Below are positions 18,380 to 38,487 of a stretch of DNA of 64,000 nucleotides, one piece after another. A program made the translations under genes and the position numbers. The notes below the pieces were generated by a model, which saw only the letters and a program-made list of their open reading frames with translations, was not told the DNA's origin and did no database searches. The DNA is from Streptomyces fagopyri (GTDB lineage Bacteria; Actinomycetota; Actinomycetes; Streptomycetales; Streptomycetaceae), in contig NZ_CP045643.1 in the NCBI RefSeq assembly GCF_009498275.1, forward strand, positions 5,332,001 through 5,396,000. The letters run 5' to 3'. How positions within the stretch are numbered: position 1 is the stretch's first letter; every line of letters begins with the position of its first letter.

Positions 18380-18405
18380 GGAATTCTGTCCGGATTCCAG
18401 TCGTT
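18380..18405 (+). promoter_or_regulatory. SigR-type promoter of hrdD (GGAAT-N18-GTT)
   Basis: GGAAT at 18380-18384 (preceded by G), exactly 18 bases, then GTT at 18403-18405, about 120 bp before the hrdD start. This is the published consensus for SigR, the thiol-oxidative-stress sigma factor of Streptomyces, and hrdD is a recognised SigR target in S. coelicolor. An upstream GGGAAC (18368-18373) could belong to a second ECF promoter, but I cannot assign its partner box. Confidence 0.8.
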
Positions 18406-36711: not shown

Positions 36712-36832
36712 GAACCGCACCCTAGCCGGGGCCGGGGCCGGGGCACACCGAAGACCCCGCCGTCGGCTGACGGCAGGGCCTGGTGGAAATCGCGTCCCGC
36801 GTGGCGGACCGCACCGCGTCCCGCGTGGCGGA

Positions 36833-37156
36833 CTAAGCGGCGGAGCTGCTGGACGAACCGCTGCCCGACGACTTCGACTCCGAGGACGACGAGGTCGTCG
36901 AAGACGAGGACGAGGACGAAGAGGACGACGCCGGTGAGGACGTCGACGGCTTGGACGCCGGCGAGCTCGTCGACGAGGAGCCGCGGCTGTCATTGCGGTA
37001 GAAACCGGAGCCCTTGAAGACAATGCCGACGGCCGAGAACACCTTCTTCAGGCGGCCACCGCAGTTGGGGCACTCGGTCAGGGCATCGTCGGTGAACTTC
37101 TGCACCGCCTCGAGGCCCTCGCCGCACTCGGTGCACTGGTACTGGTAGGTCGGCAC
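36833..37156 (-). CDS. FmdB-type zinc-ribbon protein with Ser-rich tail, Ruc-like redox chaperone candidate
   Basis: 107 residues from the GTG at 37156, preceded by AGGAGG. Residues 1-40 form a zinc ribbon with four Cys (8, 11, 29, 32 in CTEC and CPNC). Residues 41-55 are VFSAVGIVFKGSGFY, the FmdB core. The rest is a disordered tail of almost pure Ser with Thr, Lys and Glu. This matches Mycobacterium tuberculosis Rv0991c (Ruc), a HrcA-controlled, redox-activated chaperone of similar length and layout. Supporting this, a CIRCE element and a SigR-type promoter lie immediately upstream, and fau, galU and moeA lie nearby, as in mycobacteria. Chaperone activity here is inferred. Confidence 0.85.
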   Translation of the reverse strand: MPTYQYQCTECGEGLEAVQKFTDDALTECPNCGGRLKKVFSAVGIVFKGSGFYRNDSRGSSSTSSPASKPSTSSPASSSSSSSSSSTTSSSSESKSSGSGSSSSSAA

Positions 37157-37167
37157 TTGTCTTCCTC

Positions 37168-37194
37168 CTGGCACTCTCACTCAGTGAGTGCTAA
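37168..37194 (-). promoter_or_regulatory. CIRCE element (HrcA operator) before the FmdB/Ruc-like gene
   Basis: On the minus strand: TTAGCACTC-N9-GAGTGCCAG. The left arm is a 9/9 match and the right arm 7/9 to the consensus TTAGCACTC-N9-GAGTGCTAA. It ends at the ribosome-binding site AGGAGG, so bound HrcA would sit on the transcription start. Confidence 0.85.
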
Positions 37195-37218
37195 CGACGG
37201 TCCATACTGACGTATTCC
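37193..37218 (-). promoter_or_regulatory. SigR-type promoter (GGAAT-N18-GTT) of the FmdB/Ruc-like gene
   Basis: On the minus strand, GGAAT (37218-37214), exactly 18 bases, and GTT (37195-37193). The GTT overlaps the first bases of the CIRCE element, so SigR transcription would begin inside the HrcA operator. Confidence 0.7.
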
Positions 37219-37224
37219 GAGAGA

Positions 37225-38487
37225 TCAGTCCACTGTCACCGGCACTCGGTGACCGACGCCACGTGCGACGGTGCGGCCGGCGGGTCGTGTCGCGAGCCGT
37301 GAGCGCAGGGCCAGCAGGGTGATCAGCGCCAGGGCCGTACCGCCCATCGGCACCAGGAATCCGGCGCCGTCCCACAGGCGGTCCTCCATCTGCCCGGCCA
37401 CCGTGACGGCAGCGGCCTGGCCGAGGGCGACGGCGCCGGTCAGCCAGGTGAAGGCCTCGGTGCGGGCGCCGGCCGGCACCAGCCCCTCGACCAGTGTGTA
37501 GCCGGTGATCAGGGCCGGAGCGATGCACATGCCGACCAGGAGTCCGATGCCGACGAGCGTGGCCACGGAGTGGGCGGCCCACAGTCCGGACGCGGTGAGC
37601 GTGAGGGCTGCGTAGCCGACGACCAGGCGCCTGCGGGGGGCCACCTTCCAGGCGATGGCGCCGCAGACGACGCCCGACAGCATGTTGCCCGCGGCGAAGA
37701 CGCCGTACAGGACGCCGTTCATACCGGGCTCGCCGATGGACTCGCTGAACGCGGCGAGCGAGACCTGCATGCCGCCGAAGACGGAACCGATGCCCAGGAA
37801 GGTCACGATCAGTACGCGCACCCCGGGGATCCGCAGCGCGGAACCGTGCTCCACGCGCGCGTGGCCCTCGCGGGCGGTGGCGGGCTGGGTGCTCTTCTGC
37901 GCGGCGAACAGGAGGCCGCCGACCAGGGTGAGCGTGGCCTCGGTCAGCAGGCCCGCCGCCGGGTGCACGGTGGTGCACAGGGCGGTCGCGAGCAGCGGGC
38001 CCAGGACGAAGGTCAGCTCGTCCGTGACGGACTCGAAGGCCGCCGCGGTGCTCATCAGGGGCGAGTCGTGGAGCTTCACGCCCCAGCGGGCGCGCATCAT
38101 GGGCCCGATCTGCGGCACCGAGGCGCCGGTCGGCACGGCGGCGAGGAAGAGGGCCCACAGGGGGGCGTCCGACAGGGCCAGGGCCGTCAGGCAGAGGGCG
38201 GCCAGCACGTGCACCAGCACGCCGGGCAGCAGGACGGCCCGCTGTCCGTGGCGGTCGGCGAGACGGCCCGTGAAGGGCGCGAACAGCGCCATGGAGACAC
38301 CGGTGGCCGCGGCGACGGCGCCGGCGGCCCCGTACGAGCCGGTGGTGTGCTGGACGAGGAGCACGAGGGAGATGGTCAGCATCGCGAACGGCTGGCGCGC
38401 CGCGAAGCCGGGAAGCAGGAACGTCCAGGCGCCGCGGGTGCGCAGCAGCTGTCCGTACCCGGGGCGGGAGGTGACCGTGGATGCCAC
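37225..38487 (-). CDS. MFS transporter (12 TM)
   Basis: 420 residues with about 12 hydrophobic segments. An MFS loop GRLADRHGQRAVLLPG lies between helices 2 and 3, and TGRLADRHG is the motif-A core. GAWTFLLPGFAARQPFAMLTIS at the start is typical of an actinobacterial MFS group of unknown substrate. GAAAGG precedes the ATG. It ends just upstream of the FmdB/Ruc promoter and is transcribed in the same direction; read-through into that gene is possible because I see no terminator between them. Confidence 0.87.
   Translation of the reverse strand: MASTVTSRPGYGQLLRTRGAWTFLLPGFAARQPFAMLTISLVLLVQHTTGSYGAAGAVAAATGVSMALFAPFTGRLADRHGQRAVLLPGVLVHVLAALCLTALALSDAPLWALFLAAVPTGASVPQIGPMMRARWGVKLHDSPLMSTAAAFESVTDELTFVLGPLLATALCTTVHPAAGLLTEATLTLVGGLLFAAQKSTQPATAREGHARVEHGSALRIPGVRVLIVTFLGIGSVFGGMQVSLAAFSESIGEPGMNGVLYGVFAAGNMLSGVVCGAIAWKVAPRRRLVVGYAALTLTASGLWAAHSVATLVGIGLLVGMCIAPALITGYTLVEGLVPAGARTEAFTWLTGAVALGQAAAVTVAGQMEDRLWDGAGFLVPMGGTALALITLLALRSRLATRPAGRTVARGVGHRVPVTVD

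Follow-up and report, generated by a model that had tools for sequence, protein, structure and literature searches.

Organization of the region upstream of the ruc-like gene

The locus studied here raises the question of how a Ruc-like redox chaperone gene is controlled when a promoter of the SigR thiol-stress type runs directly into a CIRCE operator, the binding site of the repressor HrcA, and whether its full expression in Streptomyces needs both disulfide stress and protein-folding stress, as the first-pass annotation of this DNA had proposed. The gene lies on the minus strand of a 64,000-nucleotide stretch of the Streptomyces fagopyri genome, which was analysed at its full length and is referred to below as the window. 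The succession of GGAAT-N18-GTT, CIRCE, AGGAGG and a GTG start described in that annotation was confirmed element by element, and the complete order on the minus strand reads TGGACT-N8-GGAAT-N4-CAGTAT-N8-GTTAGCACTC-N9-GAGTGCCAGGAGG-N7-GTG, with the start codon at 37156. The features are as follows:

37227–37232, minus strand: putative housekeeping-type −35 element, TGGACT, overlapping the final codons of the transporter-like gene upstream
37214–37218, minus strand: SigR −35 element, GGAAT, matching the SigR consensus GGAAT-N18-GTT (PMC2375139)
37204–37209, minus strand: putative housekeeping-type −10 element, CAGTAT (CANNAT)
37193–37195, minus strand: SigR −10 element, GTT, its TT common to GTT and the CIRCE left arm
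37168–37194, minus strand: CIRCE operator (HrcA site), TTAGCACTC-N9-GAGTGCCAG, assigned by consensus match and conservation
37164–37169, minus strand: Shine–Dalgarno sequence, AGGAGG, overlapping the end of the CIRCE right arm
37154–37156, minus strand: GTG start codon
36833–37156, minus strand: ruc-like gene, 107 aa, an FmdB-family CxxC/CxxC zinc ribbon plus a 57-residue tail
36833–36835, minus strand: ruc stop codon

The SigR-type promoter thus spans 37218–37193 with a spacer of 18 nt, and the TGGACT hexamer forms part of the stop region of the upstream gene (GTG GAC TGA).

The encoded protein scored well above the cut-offs of two FmdB models, PF09723 (58.1 bits, cut-off 34.4) and TIGR02605 (74.2 bits, cut-off 31.3), and 37 of the 57 tail residues are Ser or Thr, in agreement with the earlier description of a four-Cys zinc ribbon with a Ser-rich tail. 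The tail is hydrophilic and, judged from its composition, probably without structure. A search for solved structural relatives gave none that was convincing (best E 0.87). The gene upstream (37228–38487) is transporter-like, all of its profile matches lying below curated cut-offs, and downstream of ruc are an S-methyl-5′-thioadenosine phosphorylase gene (NF005876, 450.5 bits, cut-off 306) and, further on, mscL (TIGR00220, 73.8 bits, cut-off 71). Two copies of a direct repeat, TCCGCCACGCGGGACGCG, occupy 36815–36832 and 36791–36808, between the ruc stop codon and the phosphorylase gene. By gene order the S. coelicolor ruc would be approximately SCO3187, a few loci from SCO3190 (MscL) and SCO3202 (hrdD). 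The same S. fagopyri genome contains a second FmdB-family paralogue, shorter than the Ruc-like protein, whose 3.1-kb locus lacks a CIRCE core and, upstream of the gene on its strand, a SigR site; the sole GGAAT..GTT match there lies inside the gene and on the opposite strand.

Significance of the motifs and their regulators in the genome

With up to three mismatches allowed, CIRCE was matched once in the window against 0.01 expected. At ruc, 16 of the 18 arm positions agree with the consensus TTAGCACTC-N9-GAGTGCTAA and two are off, and the right arm GAGTGCCA(A/G) recurs at the hrcA and groES sites of the same genome. The pattern GGAAT-N17..19-GTT taken alone is not significant, with two matches in the 64-kb window against 1.01 expected and with 26 of 100 shuffles reaching two, and because CIRCE itself contributes the TT of GTT the SigR −10 match is partly free. 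The significance of the SigR site therefore derives from its composite with CIRCE and from the conservation of that composite, not from the motif alone.

The genome encodes one SigR orthologue above the curated cut-off (TIGR02947, 359.5 bits, cut-off 251.55), directly followed by RsrA (TIGR03988, 102.8 bits, cut-off 62.5), as well as HrcA, whose match starts at 6201459; hrcA has its own perfect CIRCE core at 6201391–6201411, which ends 47 nt before the match. Genome-wide we found five perfect GCACTC-N9-GAGTGC cores, two before groES-groEL1 and one each before groEL2, hrcA and ruc (the gro genes being named by eye), and it is the ruc core alone that GGAAT-N18-GTT directly precedes. The groES-groEL1, groEL2 and hrcA promoters of this genome therefore share CIRCE with ruc, but have no such promoter attached to it.

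The targets of SigR include hrdD. The other match to the SigR pattern in the window (GGAATTCTGTCCGGATTCCAGTCGTT, 18380–18405, plus strand) gives a further SigR-type promoter, located 121 nt ahead of a gene for a 333-aa sigma factor of the principal type, which is probably hrdD by gene order (sco3202 in PMC6767563).

Conservation of the SigR–CIRCE composite in Streptomyces

A ruc match was present in 150 of 151 Streptomyces genomes, and the composite GGAAY-N16..20-GTTNGCACTC-N9-GAGTGC occurred once each in 144 of the 151 (its adjacency to ruc being judged by eye from coordinates, and in part from sequence, rather than scripted for all 144), whereas the reversed pattern gave no matches in the same genomes. 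Both motifs, whose conservation had been proposed as a check on the first reading, are thus conserved in Streptomyces. Among the seven misses, G030 has no ruc match, G089 and G135 carry one extra T before AGCACTC, and G138 reads GGAAAT in place of GGAAT. G020, G025 and G123 have no GGAAT, and retain CIRCE together with a −10-like hexamer.

Upstream of ruc, G020 and G123 (L048 and L051) have different DNA, with TAGTAT or TACCAT in place of the CANNAT hexamer, as if compensating for the missing GGAAT; the changes in these two genomes are alike and may represent one event. We also observed, within the region 37171–37191, a further copy of GAGTG in the CIRCE loop at ruc in 41 of 46 distinct Streptomyces sequences, which may offer the left arm two pairing sites. 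This extra copy is also found in genera g107, g109, g114 and g117, and is absent in g104, g112 and g115.

Conservation in the Streptomycetaceae and the wider class

A pattern combining CIRCE with the start of ruc was matched in 106 of 121 Streptomycetaceae genomes and in 16 of 17 genera, figures that are minimum values, given the strictness of the pattern in its coding part: of the 15 genomes missed, eight belong to Streptomyces and do carry the composite. We read 18 sequences, one from each of 16 genera and two additional ones, and found GGAA[TC]-N17..19-GTT in 12 of the 16 genera. Genera g103 and g106 have no SigR site, and their CACCAT directly adjoins the CIRCE arm; in g116 both SigR boxes are altered; and the g108 representative reads GGAAA, yet a count by eye gave GGAAT at eight of 23 g108 loci. 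Mean pairwise identity, calculated over 14 genera with g103 and g106 left out, was 98% in TGGACT compared with 40% in the 20 nt upstream, and 94% in GGAAT compared with 38% in the 6 nt between these two elements. Within the SigR spacer, identity was 71% in the 4 nt after GGAAT and 75% in the 8 nt before GTT, with the four fixed bases of CANNAT at 100% and its NN at 47%, and further downstream the values were 95% for GTT, 100% for AGCACTC, 56% for the CIRCE loop and 100% for GAGTGCCAG.

In the class as a whole the zinc-ribbon family is present in 293 of 295 genomes and 101 of 102 genera, and hrcA in all 295 genomes. The upstream region of the best match was read for 66 non-Streptomyces genera, one each, from the matches listed (approximately 100 genera match), and CIRCE (at least 14 of 18 positions) precedes ruc in 49 of them. 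The other 17 belong to families f19 (six), f26 (four, one of them at 13/18), f25 (two), f29 (two), f23, f35 and f5, and HrcA control is therefore not universal among these listed ruc matches, some of which may be paralogues; a missing hrcA as the cause was ruled out by its presence in 295 of 295 genomes. Many other families of actinomycetes (L087, L091, L102, L111 and others) have TTAGCAGTC or TTGGCAGTC as the CIRCE left arm at ruc, where Streptomyces and most Streptomycetaceae genera read have TTAGCACTC.

A SigR-type site was found within 70 nt upstream of CIRCE in ten of the 49 CIRCE-bearing genera (300 shuffle rounds: mean 0.12, maximum 2). TGGACN-N16..18-YANNRT likewise occurs in ten of the 49, nine of these ending on the first CIRCE base (shuffle mean 0.06, maximum 2, a post hoc figure), and in none of the 49 do the SigR-type site and the TGGACN pair occur together.

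A putative housekeeping-like promoter around the SigR −35 element

In all 16 Streptomycetaceae genera read, the pair TGGACN-N17/18-CANNAT is present around the position of the SigR −35 or, in g103 and g106, without a SigR site. HrdB promoters of S. coelicolor retain an A at −11 and a T at −7 in the −10 element and have weakly conserved −35 elements (PMC6344877), and under an assumed start CANNAT has both of these bases in the 16 genera. The putative nested −35, TGGAC(T), differs from a TTGAC-like element by G in place of T at position 2, in a part of HrdB promoters that the same source describes as weakly conserved. Coding constraint may account for part of the conservation of TGGACT in the many Streptomyces where this hexamer reaches into the end of the upstream gene; several other genera retain it though no stop codon follows.

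To follow these elements into named genomes, we scanned a single genome of each GTDB species for the pattern GGAAY-N17..19-GTT-N1..3-GCASTY-N9-GAGTGCYA, which matched at least 118 stretches; 80 loci were listed, and the counts given refer to these loci and are not frequencies. Composites precede ruc at 57 of the 80, of which 37 are from Streptomycetaceae (Streptomyces together with a Kitasatospora, Streptacidiphilus and Mangrovactinospora), 13 from the Mycobacterium group (GGTTCTAGCACTT; one placed by its sequence), two from Rhodococcus (GTTGGCACTC) and five from Amycolatopsis and Prauserella (GTTAGCACTC). The TGGAC pair is found at 37 of 37 listed Streptomycetaceae loci and at none of the 13 mycobacterial-type, two Rhodococcus or five Amycolatopsis/Prauserella loci. 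In this last group CA..AT is present in four of the five listed SigR spacers, and a different pair, TTG(A/C)-N19/20-YANNNT, encloses GGAAT at all five listed loci (shuffle mean 0.04, maximum 2), although the shuffle figures for nested pairs are post hoc because the pairs were first seen by eye in the very sequences later used to count them. The TTG-type pair was found at none of the 13 listed mycobacterial-type and neither of the two listed Rhodococcus loci.

On the basis of these sequences, we marginally favour a reading of the Streptomycetaceae ruc promoter as a three-input device, in which SigR elements would be nested within a housekeeping promoter and both would share an HrcA gate. The same reading would derive it from an older actinomycete housekeeping −10 fused to CIRCE, with the promoter now shifted upstream by approximately 10 bp, or one helical turn, and the SigR elements occupying the space that this shift freed. 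Amycolatopsis and Prauserella would then have a comparable nested design with the TTG-type pair, and mycobacteria SigH over CIRCE with no recognizable pair.

An RNA role of the CIRCE hairpin was also considered, in which a housekeeping transcript would carry the hairpin beside the ribosome-binding site and a SigR transcript would be free of it. Folding from three assumed ruc 5′ ends was unremarkable (z −0.27, −0.13 and −1.25), and this candidate was rejected.

Relation to M. tuberculosis ruc and other known systems

Ruc (Rv0991c) of M. tuberculosis is an oxidation-activated chaperone whose gene is directly repressed by HrcA and induced by SigH on heat, as the first-pass annotation had correctly stated for HrcA and for oxidation (PMC7448276). 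The same paper reports that the SigH and HrcA sites upstream of ruc overlap, suggesting competition, that Ruc is abundant at 37 °C in an hrcA mutant and more so at 45 °C, and that a second transcription start lies 19 nt upstream. In addition, Rv0991c appears in a table of SigH-dependent genes adjoining SigH binding sites (PMC4803200), HrcA is described as repressing groES, groEL1, groEL2 and Rv0991c (PMC8223512), and SigH is 72% identical with SigR (PMC4921905). The M. tuberculosis and Streptomyces genes are thus alike, as far as these accounts go, in combining an ECF sigma factor of the SigR/SigH type with HrcA, at overlapping sites and before the same kind of gene. M. tuberculosis has its second reported start upstream, and Streptomyces a putative housekeeping-like pair around the SigR −35; none of the 13 listed mycobacterial-type loci has such a nested pair, despite the two starts reported for M. 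tuberculosis. The gap between GTT and GCACTT is 3 nt in the mycobacterial-type loci read, among which the M. tuberculosis sequence itself was not included, compared with 1 nt in Streptomyces.

Overlap of a SigH promoter with a heat-shock repressor operator is also described at M. tuberculosis clpB (PMC4803200), where the repressor is HspR rather than HrcA and the gene a different one. The promoter consensus of the S. coelicolor SigR regulon is the same GGAAT-N18-GTT as at S. fagopyri ruc (PMC2375139, PMC4921905). Streptomyces HrcA is listed in PMC2687793 as controlling groES/EL1 and groEL2, ruc not being mentioned in that listing, and the authors of PMC9205884 suggest that some SigR targets were possibly missed owing to negative regulation in vivo. 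Our literature search, with the full SigR target lists outside its scope, found no description of SigR plus HrcA control of Streptomyces ruc; the gene may already be among the SigR targets published by Kim et al. (2012) and Kallifidas et al. (2010).

The proposal that this dual architecture was undescribed consequently does not hold, given the overlap of SigH and HrcA sites at M. tuberculosis ruc (PMC7448276) and the similar fusions at ruc in the named Mycobacterium, Rhodococcus, Amycolatopsis and Prauserella loci. What the present analysis adds is breadth across actinomycetes, with the same or nearly the same fusion in several families, and, as a new element, a putative housekeeping-like promoter nested in the composite in Streptomycetaceae and in Amycolatopsis/Prauserella. 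Coupling of thiol stress and folding stress at ruc accordingly recurs across actinomycetes and is not a peculiarity of M. tuberculosis. The ruc promoters also hint at a stepwise promoter evolution readable across genera, and Streptomyces offers a genetically tractable and harmless host for studying how approximately 65 bp could accommodate a repressor gate together with two sigma factors.

Probable control logic of the Streptomyces ruc promoter

At the level of sequence, a SigR-type promoter and CIRCE share bases before the Ruc-like gene, and TGGACN-N17/18-CANNAT lies around the SigR −35. Taken as a whole, these features are best explained as the Streptomyces form of the M. tuberculosis ruc promoter, with a repressor gate over two promoters, a reading to which we assign a probability of roughly 0.8. 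In calm conditions, HrcA bound to CIRCE would cover the SigR start, lie immediately downstream of the housekeeping start and block both promoters. Protein-folding stress would free CIRCE and allow basal-to-moderate expression from the housekeeping promoter, and thiol oxidation, by inactivating RsrA and freeing SigR, would add strong transcription that is largest with HrcA off. The Ruc protein would then be activated by oxidation of its own cysteines, so that a single kind of stress would both induce the chaperone and activate it. Such a gate would be graded rather than a strict AND. In evolutionary terms the housekeeping promoter and CIRCE would be the older part, with the SigR/SigH input laid over them, probably more than once.

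The first-pass annotation had instead envisaged that SigR alone transcribes ruc and that HrcA must be off, with disulfide and folding stress both required. The bases shared by the SigR −10 and CIRCE speak for this, since bound HrcA should exclude the SigR holoenzyme, as does the finding that the nested pair is missing from the 13 listed mycobacterial-type loci. However, M. tuberculosis has abundant Ruc at 37 °C when hrcA is its only mutated regulator (PMC7448276), which indicates that the logic there is a repressor gate plus a stress boost; a strict SigR requirement is made still less likely by the conserved housekeeping-like promoter within the Streptomycetaceae element, and the three Streptomyces without GGAAT retain CIRCE and a −10-like hexamer, two of them as TAGTAT/TACCAT. 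By analogy with M. tuberculosis and from these sequences, a strict need for both stresses in Streptomyces is unlikely, and of the original interpretation the part that stands is a conserved SigR-type promoter abutting an HrcA operator before a Ruc-like gene. Still less probable is that the SigR match is fortuitous and HrcA acts alone: GGAAT-N17..19-GTT by itself is near chance level per 64 kb and CIRCE supplies its TT, but 144 of 151 Streptomyces genomes carry a single copy of the composite, the reversed-pattern control gave no match, GGAAT is 94% identical over 14 genera against 38% between TGGACT and GGAAT, and SigH control has been shown at the orthologous M. tuberculosis gene (PMC7448276, PMC4803200).

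A more serious alternative, although still a doubtful one, is that TGGAC...CANNAT is no promoter and owes its conservation to coding constraint in the upstream gene together with an extended SigR or HrcA contact. TGGACT does fall within the GTG GAC TGA stop region in the window, the pair was found post hoc, other stretches of the SigR spacer are also 71–75% identical, and S. coelicolor HrdB −35 elements are weakly conserved (PMC6344877). Against this, the pair keeps its spacing of N17 or N18 in 16 of 16 genera, even where no stop codon follows, and it is present in the SigR-less g103 and g106 and in other families, ending at the edge of CIRCE. Furthermore, a different, TTG-type pair encloses GGAAT at all five listed Amycolatopsis/Prauserella loci, and CANNAT is absent from the 13 listed mycobacterial SigH-type spacers and is therefore not a general part of the SigR spacer. 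We thus retain the gate over two promoters as the preferred reading.

Composites at other genes

The 23 listed composites that do not precede ruc include groES-, groEL-, hrcA- and hsp20-like genes from several phyla (named by eye), and their matches may be due to chance. The search of the class also gave composites at hsp20-, groES- and groEL-like genes (again named by eye), several of them with GGAA only, and such GGAA-only cases may be chance because CIRCE supplies the TT. Before hsp20-like genes (named by eye) of other actinomycetes, CIRCE lies beside a GGAA-type box at L056, L057, L058, L062, L063, L232 and L272, and two of these loci, L062 and L063, have the full GGAAT-N18-GTTAGCACTC layout.
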